Below, piece by piece: positions 6,911 through 17,093 of a stretch of 64,000 nucleotides of DNA (its first letter is position 1; each line of letters opens with the position of its first letter). The position numbers and the translations under genes were made by a program. Under the pieces are notes generated by a model. It ran no database searches, was not told where the DNA came from, and saw nothing but the letters and a program-made list of their open reading frames with translations. Origin of the DNA: Paenibacillus sp. Root52 (GTDB taxonomy: Bacteria > Bacillota > Bacilli > Paenibacillales > Paenibacillaceae); NCBI RefSeq assembly GCF_001426865.1, contig NZ_LMFO01000001.1, positions 923,602-987,601 on the forward strand. Reading direction: 5' to 3'.

Positions 6911-8086
6911 CTAGTCTGTGCCCTGCTCCGGTATACCTTGAGGACCTACGGACTTTCCTGTACGCGTCACGAGTGCCTCCACCTTCACCTGAACATCCAT
7001 GATAGAAAAAAGCTCGTCCCAGTTCTTTTGCTGCGCGTTCCATTGCTTGGGATAATGTCTGCGGAATTCAGTAGCAAACTGGAAAAAATCCGTCTTTAGC
7101 TGTTTCTGTGCCATCACTAAAGCTTTCTCCGCAAGCTCTTTCAAATGCTCTGACCAAGCTCGATCCAGTTCTTTTAACATTGTCGGATCAGTTAAGTTCG
7201 CATCGGTAGTATTAAGTACGACTTCCCCTTTGGACTTCACTTGAACCTGCATACGCCATTCATTGTTGATAATTTGAGGGGTTAAGGCCGTATGCATTTC
7301 AATCGGCATGATGGAGAAGGAACCCTCCATATTCTTTAGCTGGACTGGAATAATAATGTTCTCCAGCTCGTTTGCAAGTAACAGAATGCCCACACTCATC
7401 GGTTCCGTAACGGTTTTAATATAATGATCATTTTTATATAGGCTTAACCCTTTGATATACGGAGTAGAATCATATCGATCTTTCCCCGGATCTGGTGGTA
7501 ACATTAACATTCGCGACAGTGTAGCAGAACGGCTTGGGCCTTCAATGGACTGGGCGAGTTCAAGTACCGTCACCCGTGTACCCAGCTTCATATTGGCCAT
7601 TTCACGCAAGGATTCTGCCGAGCTTCTTTCGAGGGGATCAAGCAAAGCTAGAATATCCTTAGCAGAATCGCTAGTGGAAAAGACATAGGCATGTTCGCGG
7701 AATTGAGGATATCGAAGTAGAAAATCGATGTATTGGCGTAAGCCCTGTTTGCCAGCATGTTCACTAATAACAATGACCTCGCAATGTCCCCAGAACATAT
7801 TACGAGGCACTTTCCTTTGTAATCGATTTAGAGCTTCGGCCACTGTACGTCCTTCCGCTGTTCGAATCATCGTCACTCCACTTGGGCTTGCCTCACTGCC
7901 TCCCGATGATCCCCCGCCCGCCTTTCGTGGAATAAATATCTGGGAAGTTAGTTGATATCGCTCATCCTCATAGTCGATGCCTGTCGCGAGCACAATCGCC
8001 AAATCGTTAACTTCAATCCGATCCCAGCATCCGGACAGCACGATACTGCTAAGTAGTATCGTGATTATAGAGATCACTTTCCTCAT
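6911..8086 (-). CDS. gerC: Ger(x)C family spore germination lipoprotein
   Basis: A 391-residue C subunit of a GerA-type germinant receptor. The N-terminus is a lipoprotein signal with lipobox LSGC at Cys20, followed by WDRIEVNDLAIVLATGID, the usual Ger(x)C opening. The rest shows the family's domains, including NMFWGHCEVIVISEHAG and KGLSLYKNDHYI. C subunits are lipid-anchored to the outer face of the spore inner membrane. The start overlaps the gerB stop by four bases, so translation is probably coupled. Expression should be under the forespore sigma factor SigG. The germinant cannot be read from the sequence. Confidence 0.93.
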   Translation of the reverse strand: MRKVISIITILLSSIVLSGCWDRIEVNDLAIVLATGIDYEDERYQLTSQIFIPRKAGGGSSGGSEASPSGVTMIRTAEGRTVAEALNRLQRKVPRNMFWGHCEVIVISEHAGKQGLRQYIDFLLRYPQFREHAYVFSTSDSAKDILALLDPLERSSAESLREMANMKLGTRVTVLELAQSIEGPSRSATLSRMLMLPPDPGKDRYDSTPYIKGLSLYKNDHYIKTVTEPMSVGILLLANELENIIIPVQLKNMEGSFSIMPIEMHTALTPQIINNEWRMQVQVKSKGEVVLNTTDANLTDPTMLKELDRAWSEHLKELAEKALVMAQKQLKTDFFQFATEFRRHYPKQWNAQQKNWDELFSIMDVQVKVEALVTRTGKSVGPQGIPEQGTD

Positions 8087-9216
8087 TCTCTTCCCCCCGA
8101 ATCTGTCTTAGCTCCATCTCCGCGGTTGCGTTTCCACAGCTTTTTAAGCAAGGCTATACCATACAAGATCGCTGGAAAAACCAATAATAGCACCAAGGTA
8201 TATACATTCGCTGAAGAGCTGACAAGATTGGCAGCACTTGCACTGTCGGATACAATCCAATATGCAAAAACCATACATAAAAATGCGAGTGGTGCTACAA
8301 CAGGTTTATAGTCATTCAACCCAAACCACTCTGCAGTGGATGTCGCAAAAATATAGAGAAAGACAGAGATTTTGACGAAAATCCCAAAGATCCATATCGC
8401 AATAATAATGGACTCAATATGCTGGAGAAAGTCAGCAATCGTAATATATCGTGCAGCAACCATGACAGGATAAGCAAAACTATCGGTTAAGTCTCCGATC
8501 AGAAATAAGCAGATGAGATTGGTCACCGTCATAGCAACCGTTGTAAATAGAAGCGAGAACAGCATCGTTCTGGTTAAACCCTTTTTACGATTCACGTAAG
8601 GTAACATAAACGCCAATACAATATATTCACTGAACCAAGCAGCAGGCGCAACAGCTCCTTTTAGACTTGGCACTATTCCTCTTTCCATAAATGGCAGCAT
8701 TTCTTCCGGCCTCAGTTCCTTGGTAAGCAAGACAAAGATCAGGCATAGAAGTACAACCACCAACGTAACAAACACTTGAGAGGTGCGACCCACCACTTCG
8801 ATACCCAATCTAACATTGATCATACAGACCACAACCATCGTACCCATAATCACGAACAAGGGTGTCTTAGGCAGAGCGTTACTTGCAATAAACTCACCAT
8901 ATTCACGAATAATTAAGCCTGTTAAATGTGGCAGAAAACCAAGATACATCAGCCCGAATAATTTACCTGGGAACCATCCTATGATGAACGTAGAAGACTG
9001 CATGATTGTTTTACCGGGATATAGCCGTTCAAGTCCTAGTGATATACCTATGGTCGCAAGGCCAACAAGTGAGCCCCAGATGGGCGAGATCCACATGTCA
9101 TGTCCTGCATAATGCATCGTTATACCAGGGACGGATAAGATGGATGTGGCCAGAATGGCGGGGAAAATCATGAATGCTAATTGAGTGACAGATATTTTCC
9201 CCTTCTCGGTCAACAT
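8083..9216 (-). CDS. gerB: GerB/GerAB family spore germination permease-like subunit
   Basis: A receptor B subunit of the amino acid/polyamine/organocation superfamily (PF03845 type) with about ten membrane helices, for example TQLAFMIFPAILATSILSVPG and VVGRTSQVFVTLVVVLLCLIF. It binds germinant within the membrane. A GTG-like frame extends upstream to 9291, overlapping gerA, but AGGTGGAGG lies eight bases before the ATG at MLTEKGKIS. That start gives a normal-length 377-residue protein and leaves 38 bases to gerA. Confidence 0.92.
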   Translation of the reverse strand: MLTEKGKISVTQLAFMIFPAILATSILSVPGITMHYAGHDMWISPIWGSLVGLATIGISLGLERLYPGKTIMQSSTFIIGWFPGKLFGLMYLGFLPHLTGLIIREYGEFIASNALPKTPLFVIMGTMVVVCMINVRLGIEVVGRTSQVFVTLVVVLLCLIFVLLTKELRPEEMLPFMERGIVPSLKGAVAPAAWFSEYIVLAFMLPYVNRKKGLTRTMLFSLLFTTVAMTVTNLICLFLIGDLTDSFAYPVMVAARYITIADFLQHIESIIIAIWIFGIFVKISVFLYIFATSTAEWFGLNDYKPVVAPLAFLCMVFAYWIVSDSASAANLVSSSANVYTLVLLLVFPAILYGIALLKKLWKRNRGDGAKTDSGGRE

Positions 9217-9254
9217 TGAACGTCGCCTCCACCTGTTATGTAATCCATTCCAGT

Positions 9255-10658
9255 CTACCGGGATTTGTTCTCTTGCGTTGGTCGCCACCATACATCCTTG
9301 AGCTTCTGGGCTGACGTTGGTGTTGCAGGAGATAGATACGGTGTACCAAAGGAGCGTAAACTGCTTAAGTGAATTACAATTAGGATCACCCCAAGCATTA
9401 CACCGATTAAGCCAAGTGTGCCCGCCATCAGCATAATCGGAAAGCGCAATAGACGTGCCGCAATACTGGCAGCATATCTAGGGATCATAAACGACGCAAT
9501 TCCTGTAATCGCGACGATAATGATCATTGGAGCTGAGACAATACCCGCAGTTGTAGCCGCTTGGCCGATAATTAACGCCCCAACGATACTCACAGCCGCA
9601 CCCACCTGTTTAGGCAGCCGGATACCAGCCTCCCGTAATGCTTCGAACGATATTTCCATAATGAGTGCTTCGACAAGTGCGGGAAAAGGAATCTCTTCTC
9701 TTGCTTTTGCAATACTAAGCAGCAGAACGGTTGGAACCATTTCCTGATGAAATGTGGTTATTGCTACATAAGCCGAAGGAAGCAGCAGAGACAGCGCATA
9801 GAAGATGTAGCGCAGCCAGCGAACAAATACACTCATGAACATATTTTGATAATAGTCCTCAGGGGACTGCAGCATGGAAAACAAAGTGACCGGGGCTATT
9901 AAACTAAATGGAGTGCCATCGATAAGCAGTGCAAACTTTCCTTCTAACAGATTAGCAGTGACCACATCCGGCCGCTCCGTTGCAATCATCTGTGGAAAGG
10001 GCGAGAAGCGCTGATCGATGATTCCCTCCTCTATGTATTGGCTTTCTAACACGTCTTGCACTTTCAACTCTGCCAAACGAGCTTCTATTTCTTGCAACAA
10101 TTTGGGATCTATGATGCCTTCCAGATAAGCAAGCGTAACCTGCGTGCCTGTATACTCCCCCATGGTTCGCATCTGTAGCTTAAGCGCTGGTGTTTTGATT
10201 CTCATTCGAAGCAAAGATAGATTCGTACTCAAAGATTCGGTAAAACCATCCCGTGAACCTCGCACTGTAGATTCCGCTGCTGGCTCCTCCGGCGTTCGGC
10301 TGGGAACTTGGTACAAGGGATAAAGTGTGCCCGGTACTTCGCCATCGATCAGGATTAGCGCTTGTCCTTCCATCACCGCTTGGACTGCTTGGCTTAAGGC
10401 AAGAATGGTCTTAGATGAAGCCATCGGAACTTGCGTAGGCTCTGCATTTCTTTTCATTTCCATAAGTGGCCCTAACACATGACGTTCTAGCCGATCCGTA
10501 TCACACAGCCCGACACAGTACACGCAGAGCGCAGTAGTCTGACAGGCCGTACGGAACGAATGAAATAGAACATCGGAACAACCTGCAAATGTGGTGCGCA
10601 GAGTAGCTTCATCTTCTATTAATTTACCGGTCAGTAATGTTTTCTCTAACGTGCTCAT
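9255..10658 (-). CDS. gerA: GerA family spore germination protein, A subunit
   Basis: A 467-residue GerA-type subunit: a large soluble N-terminal half followed by membrane helices. Family landmarks are PRTPEEP-like SRTPEEP around residue 110, STVRGSRDGFTESLSTN, LRMRIKT, YLEGIID, and the PAYVAI-like SAYVAITTFHQEMVPTVLL and QAATTAGIVSAPMIIIVAITGI stretches in the membrane part. It is the first gene of the A-B-C receptor operon. GGAGG lies eight bases before the ATG. I could not find a convincing SigG promoter by eye in the short upstream region. Confidence 0.93.
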   Translation of the reverse strand: MSTLEKTLLTGKLIEDEATLRTTFAGCSDVLFHSFRTACQTTALCVYCVGLCDTDRLERHVLGPLMEMKRNAEPTQVPMASSKTILALSQAVQAVMEGQALILIDGEVPGTLYPLYQVPSRTPEEPAAESTVRGSRDGFTESLSTNLSLLRMRIKTPALKLQMRTMGEYTGTQVTLAYLEGIIDPKLLQEIEARLAELKVQDVLESQYIEEGIIDQRFSPFPQMIATERPDVVTANLLEGKFALLIDGTPFSLIAPVTLFSMLQSPEDYYQNMFMSVFVRWLRYIFYALSLLLPSAYVAITTFHQEMVPTVLLLSIAKAREEIPFPALVEALIMEISFEALREAGIRLPKQVGAAVSIVGALIIGQAATTAGIVSAPMIIIVAITGIASFMIPRYAASIAARLLRFPIMLMAGTLGLIGVMLGVILIVIHLSSLRSFGTPYLSPATPTSAQKLKDVWWRPTQENKSR

Positions 10659-10816
10659 GGTGTGTCCTCCAGATGCGTGACGTGATTCAAATATTCATAG
10701 TTAACGACAGCATGTCCTTCTGAAAACACATTTATACGCTTCTATCTCTCCTCACTGCGCTCTCTTTGTCGAGTGAGATGTTGATAATTGCTATACGTTT
10801 TTCCATATGCATAACA

Positions 10817-10842
10817 GAAAAAAGCCGCCCTATGGCGGCTGT
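10817..10842 (-). terminator. Rho-independent terminator of sirtuin-macrodomain-radical SAM operon
   Basis: AGCCGCC, loop ATAG, GGCGGCT on the minus strand, followed by TTTTTTC. It lies about 20 bases after the radical SAM stop codon and separates that operon from gerA. Confidence 0.85.
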
Positions 10843-10860
10843 TCAATCTATAAAACACAA

Positions 10861-11688
10861 CTAACCCAAGAAGGATTCTTCCTTCGAAACACGAACCATT
10901 TCTTCTGGGAAAACGGTCTTGAAATACTTCTCCACACTCCGATGAATGTTCGGACGATACCATTTCTCCAGATCGTGTTCTTTAAAAAGTTCAGGCATAC
11001 CGAGCGACTTGGAACGTCTACCGCTTGCACCATCGCCAATGTTCAACGTATCAATCCAGATATGATCAACGATACCTAGTAGCTTCTTAGGGAAATCTGG
11101 CGTGAACGGTAATACAGGCGAGATGGAAGCCTGCGTAGGTATCCCTGCCTGATGCATCTCCTGCAAAGCCTTCATTCGTAATCGAATCCCGGGTGCATAG
11201 GGTGCAAATATTTGTTTTACATCCTCTCGGTCGGTCTCTACGGTCATCGAAACGATAACATTGCTTCGCTTAGTTAGTTCCTTAATCAGATTAATATCAC
11301 GTGTAACCAATGGACTGCGTGTCTGGATCTGAAGGTGATCCGGGGGACATTCCATCATCGCTTCCAACACACCACGTGTAATCTCGGCTTGGCGTTCAAT
11401 CGGCTGGTAAGGATCTGTTGCTGAAGACATAAACAAATGAATTGGTTTGTTCTTGGCACGAAGCTTCTTCCATTCTTTTGCATAGTTCTCAGCTGCATTT
11501 ATTTTCACATCGACCCATTCACCCCAAGGAATGTCCTTAAACCTCTGAATGGGCATCTCTCGAACATAACAATATTGACATGAGAAGGCACAACCACTAT
11601 ATGGATTAAGTGAATGCGTGAATCCCACGTTTAAGTAGCCTTTTGCTTCCGTCAATATCTGTTTAGCTAAGATTTCCGTGGTTTTCAC
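10861..11688 (-). CDS. SPL-like radical SAM protein
   Basis: A 275-residue radical SAM protein with the iron-sulfur motif CAFSCQYC (Cys33, Cys37, Cys40; a CX3CX2C spacing). The motif is preceded by GFTHSLNPYSG, as in the spore photoproduct lyase-related (SplB/Rv2578c-like) group. Later elements such as HLFMSSATDPYQPIE and VSMTVETDRED fit the partial TIM barrel. The reaction is unknown: relatives include DNA photoproduct lyase, but the SPL-specific C-terminal cysteine is not evident. Start is GTG with AAGGGGG upstream. It lies 15 bases after the macrodomain gene and before a strong terminator, so it appears to be the third gene of the sirtuin operon. Confidence 0.85.
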   Translation of the reverse strand: MKTTEILAKQILTEAKGYLNVGFTHSLNPYSGCAFSCQYCYVREMPIQRFKDIPWGEWVDVKINAAENYAKEWKKLRAKNKPIHLFMSSATDPYQPIERQAEITRGVLEAMMECPPDHLQIQTRSPLVTRDINLIKELTKRSNVIVSMTVETDREDVKQIFAPYAPGIRLRMKALQEMHQAGIPTQASISPVLPFTPDFPKKLLGIVDHIWIDTLNIGDGASGRRSKSLGMPELFKEHDLEKWYRPNIHRSVEKYFKTVFPEEMVRVSKEESFLG

Positions 11689-11703
11689 GTATCTGTTACC
11701 CCC

Positions 11704-12609
11704 TTATTGGGCTTGGAATACCCGCATGTACTGTTCATGATCTTCCTGACTAAACACGTTAAAAATGATCTGCTTAAAGTGATGATCCGGATGAGCATCT
11801 AACCACTGCTGTACAGTTGTTACGGCTATATTGGAAGCCTCGGCTTTGGGAAATCCAAATACACCCGTAGATATCGAGCATAACGCTACCGTTCTGATAT
11901 CGTCAATTTCATGCGCAAGCTCCAGACAGGACAGGTAACAGGAAGCAAGTTCCTCCTGTTGCTGTCTGGTCAGCGTTGTTCCTTGAGGAACGATAGGGCC
12001 CACCGTGTGCAGAATGTACGTTGCAGGCAAATGATACGCTCGCGTAATTTTAGCTCCACCCGTTGCTTCCGTCTCATTCTGGATGTTCATGATTCGATTG
12101 CAGTCCTCTCTTAGCAAAGGACCTGCTGCGGAATGAATGGCATTATCGATACAAGCATGTAACGGCTGAAAGCAGCCCAGCATATATTCATTTGCTGCAT
12201 TCACAATAGCGTCTACCTGGAGCTGCGTGATGTCCCCTTGCCAAACAAAGAGTTGATCCGCATGTTCGATAGAAGACTCGGGAAACAGATACGATATCGG
12301 GTTAAGCTGATCGCTCCGAACAATCACTTTCTCTCCCAGCTCCTTTTGCAAAAGGGAATCCATTTCTCTCTGGAATGCAACTGGAACCGGCGCTGGTTTT
12401 CTTAAGTTCATAAGTCCTCTGAGCAGTTCCCTCTTCTCTGCATATTCGGATGGAATAGACACATGCTGAAGATTACTGAATTCCTCAAGAAGATGCGTTA
12501 ATAACGTATCTATGATTTCCTCTTTTGACGCTTCGGTTGGAGAATAGGGTACATATGTGCTTTCTAACTGAATTTCATGTGCATATGCGCTCAAAGGCAA
12601 TTGATTCAT
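11704..12609 (-). CDS. Zinc-dependent protein-ADP-ribose hydrolase (macrodomain)
   Basis: A 301-residue protein: a helical N-terminal region of about 115 residues, then a macrodomain. The ADP-ribose loop is WQGDITQLQVDAIVNAANEYM (Asn137 and Asn140), followed by GCFQPLHACIDNAIH. In that stretch Cys146, His151 and Cys153 match the zinc ligands of the SauMacro/SpyMacroD class, and TVGPIV and SISTGVFGFP complete the site. This class removes mono-ADP-ribose placed on proteins by class M sirtuins. Its partner sirtuin gene ends 46 bases upstream. The start has GAAGGA upstream. Confidence 0.93.
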   Translation of the reverse strand: MNQLPLSAYAHEIQLESTYVPYSPTEASKEEIIDTLLTHLLEEFSNLQHVSIPSEYAEKRELLRGLMNLRKPAPVPVAFQREMDSLLQKELGEKVIVRSDQLNPISYLFPESSIEHADQLFVWQGDITQLQVDAIVNAANEYMLGCFQPLHACIDNAIHSAAGPLLREDCNRIMNIQNETEATGGAKITRAYHLPATYILHTVGPIVPQGTTLTRQQQEELASCYLSCLELAHEIDDIRTVALCSISTGVFGFPKAEASNIAVTTVQQWLDAHPDHHFKQIIFNVFSQEDHEQYMRVFQAQ

Positions 12610-12655
12610 CTATATTCCTTCTTCCTATATCCCTTTCATGGGGAAAAACACACAT

Positions 12656-13501
12656 TTACGTACGGATCAATTGAAATGCTTGATTCATATCCTCCGTAAA
12701 GGCGATAGTCTTATGTTGGTTCTCTGCTAATCCTGCTGGCTCATCTTGGTTAAAACGAAGCAATGTGGCATGCTCATTATGATACGTCATTCGTTCAAAC
12801 GGATACCGGATAATACCTGGCGTATTAAACCCAACACCAAGTTCCATGTAAACTACGTTCTGGTTTTCAGAGTCTTGTAGAAAACTACGATACATTCTCT
12901 CAGACATATGCCATTGCTCATCTTGAACAAAATATTCGTTAATTCGCAGGTTCACATCCATAGTTCCCCCACAAACAGGACATTTAGGCACAAGGTTTGT
13001 TGGTATCTTACAATCGACCGTCTGCTCTACCATCTTCTTCACTAGCTCTTCATTATCATACAGTGTATCATGGCATCCCTTTTCGCATTGCAGATACCCA
13101 TAATTACCCTGAATCTCAAATATGGAGCTGGAAGCAAACCCTGCCTTCTCGAATTGACTCTCAACATTGGTCGAAATCACAAAATGCTTTTTATTCTTCA
13201 CTAGCTCATACAAATCCAGATAGAGTTGTGTTGTGCCTGTGTCGTAACGATTCAGTTGGATATGTCGCGCCCAGTAAGCCCACTTGTCTTCCTGCGTCTC
13301 AAAAGGATAAAACCCGGAGCTATACAGATCCGTGAATCCGTACTTATCAATAAAGTCACCGAAGTGATCTGTAAATCTCTTCCCGCTAAATGTTATGCCA
13401 GCAGCAGCTGATAGACCCGCCCCTCCTCCCAGCAAAATATAATCTGCCTCTTGAATAATCGCTTTAGCACGATCTATCCGTTGTTGATAATCCGTGTTCA
13501 T
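12656..13501 (-). CDS. Class M sirtuin (SirTM), protein ADP-ribosyltransferase
   Basis: A 281-residue SIR2-family protein. The NAD site is GGGAGLSAAAG (residues 25-35), and STNVESQFEKAG (110-121) replaces the usual QNIDGLHxRAG. Gln131 in FEIQGNYG stands where deacetylase sirtuins have the catalytic His; Asn112 and Gln131 correspond to the pair used by SirTM enzymes. A zinc ribbon is made by Cys139/Cys143 and Cys174/Cys177. SirTM enzymes ADP-ribosylate lipoylated GcvH-like carriers in Staphylococcus and Streptococcus. An upstream GTG at 13546 has no ribosome site, whereas this ATG follows GAGGGAGA. A MarR-type palindrome lies about 56 bases upstream. The substrate here is unknown: no GcvH-L or LplA2 gene is nearby. 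Confidence 0.9.
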   Translation of the reverse strand: MNTDYQQRIDRAKAIIQEADYILLGGGAGLSAAAGITFSGKRFTDHFGDFIDKYGFTDLYSSGFYPFETQEDKWAYWARHIQLNRYDTGTTQLYLDLYELVKNKKHFVISTNVESQFEKAGFASSSIFEIQGNYGYLQCEKGCHDTLYDNEELVKKMVEQTVDCKIPTNLVPKCPVCGGTMDVNLRINEYFVQDEQWHMSERMYRSFLQDSENQNVVYMELGVGFNTPGIIRYPFERMTYHNEHATLLRFNQDEPAGLAENQHKTIAFTEDMNQAFQLIRT

Positions 13502-13556
13502 TATAGGTTCTCCCTCTATCAAGTCTGTCGTACGCTCTTCTAGCACACACCATTTA

Positions 13557-13574
13557 TAGTTTTATATAAAACAA
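13557..13574. promoter_or_regulatory. Candidate MarR operator upstream of sirtuin operon
   Basis: TAGTTTTATATAAAACAA, 17 of 18 identical to the palindrome in front of marR. The inner 14 bases are a perfect palindrome. It lies between the marR stop and the sirtuin start, where it could block the operon promoter. Confidence 0.7.
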
Positions 13575-13598
13575 ATTTAGCAAAAATAGTTCAACCCA

Positions 13599-14015
13599 TT
13601 AAAATTCAATCTTCTGAAGTAAGCTCATCACGGTCTTCTTTTCATCTAATGAGAACTTCTCATAGATCTTCTCAATAAGATGATGGGATATCTCTTCAAA
13701 CTCTTCCCGCAGGTCATGTCCTTTCGCTGTAAGAGATAAACGATAGATCCGCGTATCCTTCAGATCCTTCTCTTTATGAATGTATCCTCTTTTCACCAGT
13801 TTATCGACCAGAACCGTTACGGTTGACTTGTCTCGATCAATTAACTTGGACAGCTCTTGCATCGTAAGGCTATCCTGCTGATATAAACGAAACAGAATGT
13901 CACCATGAGATGGTGCAATATCGTTAATACTCCTTTTCCTTAATTCACTCTCAATAAAACGATTACCATGACGATGTATCCGACCAACCAGCGACAGTAT
14001 AACATTTTCATTCAT
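13599..14015 (-). CDS. MarR family transcriptional regulator
   Basis: A 138-residue winged-helix regulator. The recognition region is SLTMQELSKLIDRDKSTVTVLVDKLVKRGYI and the wing is KEKDLKDTRIYRLSLTAKG. It contains no cysteine at all, so it is not a thiol-switch regulator of the OhrR type; a small ligand or another mechanism must be assumed. It lies upstream of the sirtuin operon on the same strand and divergent from a membrane-anchored gene. Identical palindromes stand in front of it and of the sirtuin gene, suggesting autoregulation plus control of the operon. Confidence 0.88.
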   Translation of the reverse strand: MNENVILSLVGRIHRHGNRFIESELRKRSINDIAPSHGDILFRLYQQDSLTMQELSKLIDRDKSTVTVLVDKLVKRGYIHKEKDLKDTRIYRLSLTAKGHDLREEFEEISHHLIEKIYEKFSLDEKKTVMSLLQKIEF

Positions 14016-14025
14016 TTCTCTATTT

Positions 14026-14043
14026 TAGTTTTATATAAAACTA
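14026..14043. promoter_or_regulatory. Candidate MarR operator between marR and divergent gene
   Basis: TAGTTTTATATAAAACTA is a perfect 18-base palindrome. It lies in the 54-base gap between the two divergent starts and could control both directions at once. Confidence 0.75.
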
Positions 14044-14069
14044 TAGTCAAGACAAGGAGAAACTATGAA

Positions 14070-14543
14070 ATGAAGAAAAGTAATCTTGCATTTGTCATCC
14101 TGCTCGCCCTTATACTCGGTGGGAGTATGTGGAAATCGATGAATGATAACAGGACTATTGTCACAACCCTGGATCAGTTAGTTCTGAATCAGATCGCCAG
14201 TACACCGATCACCTCCATCGAGGTAACGCATTACGTCCTAGATCAATCATCCAAAGTCACTGTGACGAATCAAAACCAGATCAATACCCTACTTCACGAG
14301 TTTAAGGATAAGAAAGTAGAAGAACCTAACACAGTTGCACCTGACATGGAAGATTATCTCCGCATTCATATAAAAAGTGATACGGATAGCCTCATGAATG
14401 TTGTAATATTTCCGAATGATGTGATCCAGGTACTCAGTGATATGTCGCACAATAACCATAATAGTCGGGATGAAGTTACAGGAACTTACCACATGGTAAA
14501 CAAGATCAACACCCAACTCTTCGTCGATTTATTCAATTCATAA
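14070..14543 (+). CDS. Membrane-anchored hypothetical protein, divergent from marR
   Basis: A 157-residue protein, not recognised. It has one N-terminal hydrophobic helix (LAFVILLALILGGSMW), then an extracytoplasmic-type domain of about 130 residues with an alternating hydrophobic pattern (TSIEVTHYVLDQSSKVTVTN, LRIHIKSDTDSLMNVVIFPND). The ATG follows AAGGAGA by nine bases; the frame is open further upstream, but that part would run across the operator into marR. Its position makes it a likely target of the MarR protein. Confidence 0.75.
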   Translation: MKKSNLAFVILLALILGGSMWKSMNDNRTIVTTLDQLVLNQIASTPITSIEVTHYVLDQSSKVTVTNQNQINTLLHEFKDKKVEEPNTVAPDMEDYLRIHIKSDTDSLMNVVIFPNDVIQVLSDMSHNNHNSRDEVTGTYHMVNKINTQLFVDLFNS

Positions 14544-14548
14544 TATCA

Positions 14549-14593
14549 AAAATAACCTCTGATTGATGATTGTTCATCTTCAGAGGTTATTTG
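14549..14593. terminator. Bidirectional terminator hairpin
   Basis: Thirteen-base perfect arms, AAATAACCTCTGA and its complement, lie between convergent genes. The T-run is longer on the minus strand (TTTTT), so it serves the TetR gene at least. Confidence 0.75.
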
Positions 14594-14647
14594 GCTTGGA
14601 ATCACTGACGTATTGCTCTGCTATATTACATCGAATGAGAGTTTGCT

Positions 14648-15214
14648 TCAACGAGCTTTAAAGCCATTGTAGAACGTATCCACCACGAGCGCTGCAGCCG
14701 ATTTTCTAGCGATATGTCCATCAACAACTTGCTGCCAGGTAAGAAAAAGAATCGAATATAACACATCAATAATCCAATTACGATTCACATCCTGACGGAA
14801 ATATCCTCTTTGTTGCAGCATACTAACCGCTTCCAAGACAGGCTCTCTTAGCTTCTGATCAGCACCTTCAATGTCTGGATTATAGTTTACAGAAGAATCA
14901 TGTCCCAGGAAATAAATCTTATCTCCAAGTGGAATAAGGGCTTCAATTAAGTTCGGGAAATAATCCTCACAGTTCTCTTCAGTCAGCGGGAACTCCCGAA
15001 TCTTCTCACTAACAACTTCAATGGCACGGAATCCCAGATGAATCATGAGCTGTTCCCTGCTCTCCACATACCGATGCAATGTTGCAATTCCGATGCCAGC
15101 TGCATCGGCAATATCATTCATGGAGGCGTTAGGCTTCTCAATAAGCAGCTTGGTTGCTTCATCAAGTATGGCGTTCAGCCGTGTTTGTTTCATGGATGAC
15201 ATTTCTTTTTTCAT
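14648..15214 (-). CDS. TetR/AcrR family regulator
   Basis: 188 residues with an N-terminal helix-turn-helix (MNDIADAAGIGIATLHRYVESREQLMIH) and a helical C-terminal ligand-binding half. GAGGTG precedes the ATG. No obvious target gene is adjacent: downstream is a terminator and upstream a GNAT gene on the same strand that ends 81 bases away. I did not find a clear palindrome in its promoter region. Confidence 0.85.
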   Translation of the reverse strand: MKKEMSSMKQTRLNAILDEATKLLIEKPNASMNDIADAAGIGIATLHRYVESREQLMIHLGFRAIEVVSEKIREFPLTEENCEDYFPNLIEALIPLGDKIYFLGHDSSVNYNPDIEGADQKLREPVLEAVSMLQQRGYFRQDVNRNWIIDVLYSILFLTWQQVVDGHIARKSAAALVVDTFYNGFKAR

Positions 15215-15295
15215 GTTCGTACACCTCAGGGGAAATATGGCTATTTAATGTGTTCGCATCTCATTGCCCAGTATACCATAATCTAGAGCTATGCA

Positions 15296-15904
15296 TTATT
15301 TCAGCTTTTTCACCATTCTGTATAAGGATACCGCGGGTTTATTCACTTCGGATGTGATCTCATAACCGAGTCTGGCATAAAGTTTGGCCGCTAGATGATT
15401 TTCTTTTTTTACAGTGAGAGAACATAGGCTGAATCCCTGCTTGATTGCTTGTGCTTCCGCATGATGAATAAGCTGTGATCCGATCCCCATCCCTCTGCTC
15501 TCGGGCATAGCAGCAAGTGTGGCAATATGGAACTCTCCTGCGAATCCTTCCTTTAAAGTAATCGTAGATAATAACGCTCTTGGATGTAACAAGCTATAAC
15601 CAATTAGAGCTAGTTTTCGATGAGAAAACAGTTGTTTTACCGTAGAACTGACCAGATTATCCAGAACCGTTATTGGTAAACAGGTAATCATTCCGAGTGT
15701 TGAATCACCCATCTTCGCTTCATAGGCATATTCATGACTGAATCGATTATTTCTAGACTTCCATAACTTACGGAAGGTAGCATCAACGACGCTCTGGCTG
15801 CTCGACCCCGCTATGGTATGGGCAATATCCCCCACAGCCATTAAATTAAGCTTAGCTCCGGCAAGTGAGTGCGGGTTGGCTTGTACGATGGAAATGTTGG
15901 TCAT
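15296..15904 (-). CDS. GNAT family N-acetyltransferase
   Basis: About 202 residues. The acetyl-CoA site is ESRGMGIGSQLIHHAEAQA near residue 140, and the late ALYARLGYEITSE is typical of GNAT proteins. The acceptor substrate is not predictable. The start MTNISIVQAN follows AGGAGTG; a start 21 bases upstream lacks a ribosome site. Confidence 0.85.
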   Translation of the reverse strand: MTNISIVQANPHSLAGAKLNLMAVGDIAHTIAGSSSQSVVDATFRKLWKSRNNRFSHEYAYEAKMGDSTLGMITCLPITVLDNLVSSTVKQLFSHRKLALIGYSLLHPRALLSTITLKEGFAGEFHIATLAAMPESRGMGIGSQLIHHAEAQAIKQGFSLCSLTVKKENHLAAKLYARLGYEITSEVNKPAVSLYRMVKKLK

Positions 15905-15987
15905 ATTAATCACTCCTATGATCATTAATGATAAGGATTCATTCGGTTGCGAACGCTCGCGCTGCTATGCTATGTGCTATTCACCAT

Positions 15988-16338
15988 CTATTTAGTACTA
16001 AGATCTATACCTTCAATTTTGATATGAATTGTACTAATCGGTAATCCTGTGAAATTCTCTACAGCTGCTCTCACATTCTCCTGCAGATCTCTGCACACTT
16101 CCTGCATTCGGATCCCATATCGCACAATCACACTTAATTGAATATCTAACCCTGTGTCCTGTTCTCGTAGCTCGATGCCGTTATATATACGGTTGCCAGT
16201 CAATCTTTGTGCAAGTGACTCCACAATTCCGGTAGACAACGATCCAATACCCTCGGTCATACTTACTGTTTTACCAATAATTTTGGATACAACCTCTTTA
16301 GAAAAAGTCGTTTTACCCAGTACGTTTTGAATCAACAT
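15988..16338 (-). CDS. Asp23/Gls24 family envelope stress response protein
   Basis: A 116-residue protein with the Asp23/Gls24 pattern: SKEVVSKIIGKTVSMTEGIGSLSTG, DIQLSVIVRYGIRMQEVCRDLQENVRAAVENFTGLPI and VHIKIEGIDL-like TIHIKIEGIDL. Family members coat the inner face of the cell membrane or take part in alkaline and envelope stress. The second ATG, nine bases after AAGGGG, is the better start. Single gene. Confidence 0.88.
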   Translation of the reverse strand: MLIQNVLGKTTFSKEVVSKIIGKTVSMTEGIGSLSTGIVESLAQRLTGNRIYNGIELREQDTGLDIQLSVIVRYGIRMQEVCRDLQENVRAAVENFTGLPISTIHIKIEGIDLSTK

Positions 16339-16559
16339 CGTCTCCATCCCCTTTATAAAACTTTTCGTACTACATGCATTTTAGAGGTGATGCTTGAACT
16401 TTTTTAAACTTTTGATAGTTATTACTATCATTTGATTATATGATATTTCATTTATGTATATGAAGTCAACTTCCTTTAAGAAATACTAGAGCCTTTTGAG
16501 GATGATGAGATGGTATGATTGCATCATACCCATATAAAAACTAGAAAGACGGTGCCAAC

Positions 16560-17093
16560 GTGCAGTATTTTATCGCGATCGTTCCGCCTGACGATTACAA
16601 AGATCAGATCACTTCGTTTCGTAATCGTTGGGAACATCATCGGCTTAACGAAGTTGCCGAACCTCACATCACAGTGAAGGCACAAGGTGGGCTTACAGCG
16701 GATCTAACCTGGCTTGATAAAGTAAAAGTGCTTTGCTCGTCCGTACAACGTTTCCAGTTAACATTTATAGAGCCATCAGCGTTCGGAAAAGAGGTTGTTT
16801 TTCTTGGCGTACGTTCCAAAGAAATATATGAATTCCACAGATTACTCGTAGGAACCGTAGCCCCTCCGTCTGAACTTATCAAACAATATTTCGAATTGGA
16901 TGAGTTCCATCCTCATTTAACGTTGGGTCAAACCCACTGGGGGATGCAAGAATCAGAAGTTGAAGAAATGAAGCTCACATCAAAACATGCATTAGCCCCT
17001 TTTCCAACCTTTATGGTAACGCACGTTCGAGTGTACCAAGAAGTTGAACCTAACCGATACGCTCCATTTGAGGATATCCCACTCACTCGTTGA
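16560..17093 (+). CDS. 2'-5' RNA ligase family / cyclic phosphodiesterase-like protein
   Basis: A 177-residue 2H phosphoesterase-type protein with the two HxT/S motifs EPHITVKA (near residue 39) and FHPHLTLGQ (near residue 122). The family includes bacterial RNA ligases and cyclic phosphodiesterases; the substrate here is unknown. The start is GTG with only a weak ribosome site, so the exact N-terminus is slightly uncertain, though MQYFIAIVPP is the typical family opening. Confidence 0.88.
   Translation: MQYFIAIVPPDDYKDQITSFRNRWEHHRLNEVAEPHITVKAQGGLTADLTWLDKVKVLCSSVQRFQLTFIEPSAFGKEVVFLGVRSKEIYEFHRLLVGTVAPPSELIKQYFELDEFHPHLTLGQTHWGMQESEVEEMKLTSKHALAPFPTFMVTHVRVYQEVEPNRYAPFEDIPLTR

Follow-up and report, generated by a model that had tools for sequence, protein, structure and literature searches.

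What does a reversible ADP-ribosylation system act on when it stands apart from GcvH-L, to our knowledge the only known substrate of class M sirtuins (SirTM)? This question is raised by a locus of Paenibacillus sp. Root52 (contig NZ_LMFO01000001.1, positions 923,602 to 987,601), a stretch of 64,000 nucleotides that was analysed as a whole and is called the window below. In this window the genes of a predicted SirTM and of a predicted zinc-dependent macrodomain ADP-ribosyl hydrolase (Zn-Macro) are located between a gene for a MarR-family regulator and a gene for a radical SAM protein. The reading that we favour, with a probability of a little over one half (about 0.53), is that the locus encodes a MarR-controlled, reversible protein-ADP-ribosylation switch co-transcribed with the radical SAM protein, and that it represents a stripped-down stress module of Bacilli. 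In relatives, the module also encodes an OpuC-like ABC transporter, a PIG3-like NAD(P)H:quinone oxidoreductase and a SnoaL protein. Genomes and loci used for comparison are designated by G and L numbers, G000 being the genome of the window.

A predicted four-gene operon with a class M sirtuin and a zinc macrodomain

The features of the locus are the following.

13599 to 14015, minus strand: MarR-family regulator, 138 aa, no cysteine
12656 to 13501, minus strand (open frame back to GTG 13546): class M sirtuin (SirTM), with QG motif and four zinc cysteines
11704 to 12609, minus strand: predicted Zn-Macro, with C146-x4-H151-x-C153 and D155-x3-H159
10861 to 11688, minus strand: radical SAM protein, 275 aa, CX3CX2C, nearest to the PA0069 / SplB-like group
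10840 to 10823, minus strand: terminator-like hairpin with T tail, end of the operon
14028 to 14041: MarR candidate operator 1, GTTTTATATAAAAC, exact palindrome between the -35 (TTGACT) and -10 (TAAAAT) of the MarR promoter
13559 to 13572: MarR candidate operator 2, GTTTTATATAAAAC, in the MarR–SirTM spacer, 57 bases upstream of the likely SirTM start
14070 to 14543, plus strand: DUF5301-like gene, divergent and outside the conserved module; the operator-bearing intergenic region is common to this gene and the operon

The first-pass annotation of this DNA, made from the letters alone, had described a four-gene operon devoid of GcvH-L and LplA2, and this description was borne out. Frames and families agreed with it, all four genes lie on the minus strand, the regulator (PF01047, 54 bits) was indeed free of cysteine, the Zn-Macro and radical SAM genes were separated by exactly 15 bases (11689 to 11703), and the terminator was recovered. 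Neither GcvH-L nor LplA2 was found among the frames of the operon, nor in a 15-kb stretch of the same species (L051). The range that the annotation had given (10861 to 14543) also encloses the divergent DUF5301-like gene, which does not belong to the operon. The MarR, SirTM, Zn-Macro and radical SAM genes are, as predicted from their arrangement, one operon with its own terminator. Values of dN/dS ranged from 0.016 to 0.135 for all four genes in the comparison of G000, G034 and G037 (with G064 added for the radical SAM gene, and with only the C-terminal part of Zn-Macro compared), and by this estimate all four are under purifying selection between the three genomes.

The sirtuin scored 22 bits with the Pfam SIR2 model, slightly below the cut-off of 24 bits, and matched the solved structure 5a3a, which we take to be the SirTM of S. 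pyogenes, with an E value of 2e-56. Translation probably starts at ATG 13501 (281 aa), behind GAGGGAGAA, and not at GTG 13546. In the motif FEIQGNYGY, QG replaces the catalytic HG. In an alignment of 45 sirtuins this glutamine is kept in 40 rows; it is replaced by H in L120, by A in L122 and by E in three rows of the twin type described below. All 45 retain the four zinc cysteines. According to the available text of PMC4518038, QG is the hallmark of class M sirtuins. The Zn-Macro gene adjoins that of SirTM. Judged by the QG motif, the adjoining Zn-Macro and the kinship to 5a3a, the protein is a class M sirtuin and would act as an NAD-dependent protein ADP-ribosyltransferase. The sirtuins of GcvH-L operons formed a separate clade (support 100/100), with the window SirTM outside it.

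The Zn-Macro scored 116 bits with PF01661 and 326.7 bits with the NCBIfam model NF003163 (protein-ADP-ribose hydrolase), above the cut-off of 272 bits, and its best solved match was MorMacro (8rsi). An eight-residue zinc motif and the Dx3H motif are given as the marks of this family in the accessible text of PMC11490716; C146, H151 and C153 (C-x4-H-x-C), together with D155 and H159 of Dx3H, were invariant in 33 of 33 rows. Since the catalytic and zinc motifs are kept and dN/dS is low, the SirTM writer and the Zn-Macro eraser look functional, with their enzymatic activities predicted.

Other sirtuin loci were noted in the course of this analysis. In L125, a Zn-Macro 53% identical to that of the window is paired with a SirTM of distant type (37%), and the pair stands behind an Rrf2 regulator and a double SnoaL protein; a close Zn-Macro beside a distant SirTM suggests that the partners may have been swapped there. 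Twin or triple class-M-like sirtuins, with no match to Zn-Macro, are found in L054 to L058, L067 and L164 to L167 (one only in L058). On two plasmids, L156 (Paenibacillus sp. 37) and L157 (Mesobacillus), such twin-type sirtuins are annotated together with an HD protein, a nicotinate phosphoribosyltransferase and an isochorismatase-family hydrolase, an apparently NAD-salvage-linked operon that L164 seems to resemble. Lone SirTM paralogues with no Zn-Macro nearby are present at L120:6158-6952, L122:1969-2760 and L123:6523-7314, all with changed catalytic positions: in L120 the QG glutamine is replaced by H and the active-site Asn by T, L122 has A in the glutamine column, and in L123 the Asn is replaced by T. 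These three would be either degenerate or of altered chemistry.

Candidate MarR operators and the larger module of relatives

The palindrome GTTTTATATAAAAC occurs twice in the 64-kb window, against 0.02 copies expected, in a search that allowed one mismatch. The promoter hexamers that flank the first copy span 14050 to 14022 on the minus strand with a 17-base spacer, and the position of this copy is retained in G034, G037, G690 and G723. G690, G723 and G034 also have the pair, the second copy of G034 deviating by one mismatch, and single copies were found in G037 and G064. Of 184 fetched loci, 12 have an exact copy, and these belong without exception to the MarR-bearing genomes G000, G034, G037, G064, G690 and G723. 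The regulators that head the modules of G690 and G723 are orthologues of the window MarR (79–80% identical). In G690 the second copy precedes the transporter genes, hence MarR seems to control the module there as a whole. Very probably, MarR represses the operon by binding to GTTTTATATAAAAC, a site conserved between genera. Loci headed by HxlR or Rrf2 regulators had no common palindrome, one being shared by L180 to L182 only; the HxlR protein of the L059 module was nearest to the redox factor RrpB (132 bits against a cut-off of 175).

In relatives the pair is embedded in a longer series of genes. The fullest, G690, has the order MarR–OpuB–SBP–ATPase–OpuD–MDR–SirTM–Zn-Macro–radical SAM relic–SnoaL, and G723 reads MarR–MDR relic–SirTM–Zn-Macro–radical SAM–SnoaL. 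HxlR takes the place of MarR in G714, G538 and Saliterribacillus L022, the binding protein of the last being in pieces. The radical SAM gene accompanies HxlR–Opu–MDR and a sirtuin relic in G012 and G067, and the HxlR–Opu–MDR set is found with no radical SAM gene in G001, G015 and G068. Scans with hidden Markov models back the names given to these proteins (OpuAC binding protein, BPD permeases, ProV-like ATPase, PIG3-like oxidoreductase, SnoaL, HxlR), at NCBIfam scores under the curated cut-offs. An MDR orthologue (E ≤ 1e-60) was found in 8 of the 75 genus genomes; in five of these it lies some 3.7 kb away from the radical SAM gene. By comparison of gene orders, the window operon is a reduced form of this larger module.

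The neighbourhood was also compared across taxa, in 27 stretches that carry SirTM and Zn-Macro (relics included, window left out), by local matches to exemplar proteins at E ≤ 1e-5. A match to HxlR, Rrf2 or MarR was obtained in 25 of them (not in L121 or L160), and one to an MDR- or NmrA-like oxidoreductase in 15. The 24 comparison loci comprised 8 of GcvH-L type, 10 of twin type, 4 with a lone sirtuin and 2 others, and none of the 24 matched the radical SAM protein, AcgM (the radical SAM protein of the ACGX systems discussed below), the Opu permeases or binding protein, NmrA, SnoaL or Rrf2. One of them gave weak matches to both MDR (24%) and MarR (36%), and one a weak match to the ATPase; this ATPase match is the only larger-module neighbour among the eight GcvH-L-type loci. 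As the matches are local and the regulator families common, these counts are suggestive and do not amount to a formal test.

In the favoured reading, MarR would occupy the two palindromes and block both the promoter of its own gene and the one that serves SirTM–Zn-Macro–radical SAM, until released by a small-molecule inducer, most likely a reactive electrophile or a quinone. SirTM would then mono-ADP-ribosylate a target other than GcvH-L at the expense of NAD+, and Zn-Macro would strip the ADP-ribose tag. The radical SAM protein would be a co-regulated stress effector with no role in DNA repair and not strictly required by the switch.

Regarding the flanking genes, the DUF5301-like gene adjoins the operon also in G034 and, as two frames, in G064, and no match to it was found in G037. 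Directly after the terminator of the radical SAM gene lies a spore-germination operon (6911 to 10658) with a GerA-type gene (PF03323, 571 bits), the two partners of which were assigned by eye.

Linkage of the radical SAM gene and competing explanations

Whether the radical SAM gene belongs with the pair was assessed in related genomes, a survey that the first-pass annotation had proposed. In the genus, 10 of 75 genomes gave a sirtuin match: six carry a SirTM of the window clade (intact in G000, G034 and G037, relics in G064, G012 and G067) and the other four are of twin type, with 34–39% identity. The radical SAM gene lies directly downstream on the same strand in all six window-clade loci or relics. 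In the family, a sirtuin was matched in 21 of 394 genomes, and four of the five further genomes with a whole or relic window-clade sirtuin and Zn-Macro have a radical SAM gene within about 4 kb. All four operon genes are intact in G723, from a second genus; the radical SAM gene is a relic in G690, stands beside relics of SirTM and Zn-Macro in G714 and lies 3 kb away in G538, from a third genus. The gene set recurs in Saliterribacillus L022, where the radical SAM gene is distant (44%) and on the opposite strand. The order of Saliterribacillus gave a sirtuin match in 11 of 397 genomes, seven of which are of GcvH-L or twin type, as typed by identity and by the stretches read. The radical SAM copy of G054 and a sirtuin fragment of G631 were left out, and the radical SAM copies of G011 and G022 were read 1.5 kb to each side. 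As far as gene order tells, the linkage is conserved across genera; the idea of a variant operon in the first-pass annotation thus holds, and lack of such conservation, the first condition named there as refuting it, does not apply.

Several observations weigh against the stress-module reading. No radical SAM gene was present, in the stretches read, beside SirTM and Zn-Macro in G582 of the family, nor beside window-clade pairs in G828, G810 and G785 of the order of Saliterribacillus. SirTM is rare, being intact in 3 of 75 genus genomes. The radical SAM tree requires five changes to place the SirTM-linked copies, and the radical SAM frame is open in G064, G012, G067 and G714, where SirTM or Zn-Macro has decayed. 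Since the pair decays repeatedly and the radical SAM gene usually survives, the coupling into one pathway may be loose. The reverse is seen in G690, where the radical SAM gene is a relic and SirTM and Zn-Macro are intact. The electrophile or redox signal is suggested by the neighbours found in relatives, while the window MarR has no cysteine, the window operon includes neither oxidoreductase nor transporter, and no MDR match at E ≤ 1e-60 was found in G000. The 27 stretches include relics (G714) and weak matches (HxlR at 31–33% in L023 and L025), and the comparison loci differ from them in taxonomy. An HxlR regulator also stands upstream in 9 of the 10 twin-type loci, and part of the 25 of 27 regulator count may be due to chance, HxlR and Rrf2 being common families. 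The locus of Paenibacillus tundrae (L053/L028), which the genus member G064 shows as well, is in decay, with no Zn-Macro match, SirTM and MarR matched in part, and a full-length radical SAM gene 98% identical to that of the window.

The survival of radical SAM frames beside decayed partners is what would be expected if the radical SAM protein were independent and merely shared a transcript with the pair, a hitch-hiking explanation that is unlikely, albeit a serious one. It is favoured also by abundance, the radical SAM family being matched at E ≤ 1e-40 in 70 of the 75 genus genomes (with the closer type in 20) and window-clade SirTM, relics included, in 6, and by the lack of a radical SAM gene in most of the SirTM operons read outside Paenibacillaceae. 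It fits poorly with the position directly downstream and on the same strand in the six genus loci and in G690, G723 and G714, with the Saliterribacillus cluster, which is the same although its radical SAM protein is a distant homologue, and with G016, G036 and G055, where radical SAM copies devoid of any sirtuin remain within HxlR–Opu–MDR–SnoaL sets. The operon genes are, on the gene contents compared, co-maintained in several lineages and not mutually dependent.

A second possibility, which we regard as improbable, is that the radical SAM protein or its product is itself the ADP-ribosylated substrate, like GcvH-L in the extended operon. The substrate of the known system is encoded within its operon, as stated in the text available of PMC4518038, and in the window MarR and the radical SAM protein are the only other operon products. 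However, most other operons of the window SirTM type have no radical SAM match, and the broken radical SAM gene of G690 coexists with an intact pair.

A third possibility is that SirTM modifies a lipoylated protein from elsewhere in the genome, such as canonical GcvH. G000 yielded one GCV_H protein (130 aa, 143.7 bits) and four proteins of the BPL/LplA/LipB family, all on contigs other than that of the window, and lipoylation is a requirement of the known SirTM reaction (PMC4518038, same limits). The same GCV_H Pfam model detected the GcvH-L of relatives in three of three cases (110–114 aa, 52–64 bits); a GcvH-L in G000 should therefore have shown, and its presence elsewhere in the genome, which the first-pass annotation had left to be searched, is unlikely, the one GcvH being of canonical length. 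As far as the texts available go, SirTMs did not modify canonical GcvHs (PMC4518038), and MorMacro, from a pair-only operon and the best solved match of the window Zn-Macro, was unable to demodify GcvH-L (PMC11490716). Taken together with the separate clade of GcvH-L-operon sirtuins, these results indicate that the target is most likely something other than GcvH-L or canonical GcvH, and modification of a lipoylated protein encoded elsewhere is a slightly poorer prospect than the radical SAM protein as substrate.

It is very unlikely that the pair works in the manner of a toxin and its antitoxin, with SirTM harmful in the absence of Zn-Macro. The patchy distribution, the repeated decay and the plasmid location of some relatives would agree with this, and so would the changes at the QG glutamine or the TN asparagine of the lone paralogues L120, L122 and L123, as if a lone active writer were not tolerated. 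Nevertheless, the SirTM of G037 is intact, retains Q and N and evolves under purifying selection beside a Zn-Macro split into two frames, a break that may be an assembly error, and PADLOC gave no match for SirTM or Zn-Macro at E ≤ 0.001. Assignment of the locus to a defence system was likewise rejected, the only PADLOC matches being weak ones to the radical SAM and HTH proteins.

The identity of the radical SAM protein bears on the last alternative. Its membership of the superfamily is supported by PF04055 (51 bits), by the cluster motif C33-x3-C37-x2-C40, as the first-pass annotation had read it, and by the fold of a moderate predicted model with a radical SAM core (mean pLDDT 73.6, pTM 0.78, poor at the cluster loop). 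VIA-align gave generic matches to this model, with lipoyl synthase, NifB, viperin and spore photoproduct lyase (SPL) close together, so that no reaction can be read from it, and a profile search of solved sequences returned two weak matches only (E 0.04 and 2.3). The nearest named families were PA0069 (132 bits against a cut-off of 360), radical SAM mobile pair B (102.6 against 410) and Rv2578c (99 against 430), all far under their cut-offs, and the protein was assigned neither to PA0069 nor to mobile pair B. Lipoyl synthase, a tempting structural match, needs a second cluster; C33, C37 and C40 are the only conserved cysteines in 29 of 29 aligned rows, hence there is no sign of such a cluster and this identity was rejected. 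SPL has a conserved H-donor cysteine outside the cluster (C140 mutants are named among the structural matches), and no conserved cysteine of this kind was found in the 29 rows. The SPL model TIGR04070 gave 23.6 bits against a cut-off of 400, and identity with SPL was rejected; the earlier description as SPL-like is valid at the superfamily level only. A DNA-repair link through an SPL-type enzyme, which the first-pass annotation had raised, is hardly credible in view of this score, the cysteine conservation and recurrent neighbours of redox, transport and regulatory type, despite the distant TIGR04070 similarity (E 2e-5), the spore-germination-type gene next door and the SplB-like proteins of SOS operons elsewhere (PMC3765255, in the part available).

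Relation to known systems and meaning of the module

Operons consisting of the SirTM/Zn-Macro pair alone had already been published, with targets stated as unknown (Rack 2015, PMC4518038; Ariza 2024, PMC11490716; both as far as the text was available). The window shares with these 'independent' or 'minimal' operons the pair, its motifs and the lack of GcvH-L and LplA2, but it adds a radical SAM protein and a MarR regulator with two candidate operators, joined in its relatives by an Opu ABC transporter, MDR and SnoaL. Neither paper uses the words radical SAM, MarR, HxlR, Rrf2, transporter or quinone in its main text. Like the extended operon of Staphylococcus and Streptococcus (GcvH-L, LplA2, OYE, LLM), the operons of the window type combine SirTM and Zn-Macro with redox enzymes; they differ from it in the lack of GcvH-L and LplA2, in a sirtuin of another clade and in other accessory enzymes. 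A MarR regulator is likewise part of the 'radical SAM mobile pair' (TIGR04472, 64 bits with the window MarR against a cut-off of 240), which, judged by the family name, comprises two radical SAM proteins where the window operon has one.

A further likeness is offered by the ACGX-repeat peptide systems (TIGR04340) of Bacteroidota and Clostridia at L030:1670-6855, L024, L158 and L168. In these four loci the radical SAM protein AcgM precedes the SirTM/Zn-Macro pair and an ACGX-like Cys-Gly repeat peptide adjoins it; of the four, L030 alone was scanned with the TIGR04340 model, and the AcgM proteins of the other three are homologues of its protein with 58–87% identity. There, unlike in the window, the maturase is of SPASM type and is accompanied by a Cys-rich peptide, which is a candidate SirTM substrate; no ACGX-like peptide was found among the small Cys-rich frames at 8000 to 17000 of the window. 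In Roseburia (L158:5884-6825) a DUF1848 protein (PF08902, 327 bits) follows SirTM directly; part of this domain is described in Pfam as resembling a radical SAM cluster motif. No paper was found that treats macrodomain, radical SAM and sirtuin together, or ACGX, radical SAM and peptide together, in a literature search that covered few subscription papers. It is tempting to regard SirTM/Zn-Macro operons lacking GcvH-L in general as the ADP-ribosylation arm of redox-controlled modules that recruited a radical SAM protein at least twice (an SplB-like one in Bacilli, and AcgM with its Cys-rich peptide in Bacteroidota and Clostridia), with ADP-ribosylation gating a product made or handled by the radical SAM protein and, in the ACGX version, the peptide itself as the SirTM substrate; this is a doubtful proposal, though not a fanciful one.

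The published pair-only operons, the larger module, the MarR operator and the frequent persistence of the radical SAM gene in the absence of the pair are points that the first-pass annotation did not contain. The targets of SirTM/Zn-Macro systems other than that of GcvH-L are described as unknown in the available text of PMC11490716. The question of the SirTM target becomes testable with a module that recurs, has named partners and two candidate operators, and occurs in a spore-forming, soil-type host; such a module also corrects the picture of operons lacking GcvH-L as consisting of the pair alone.

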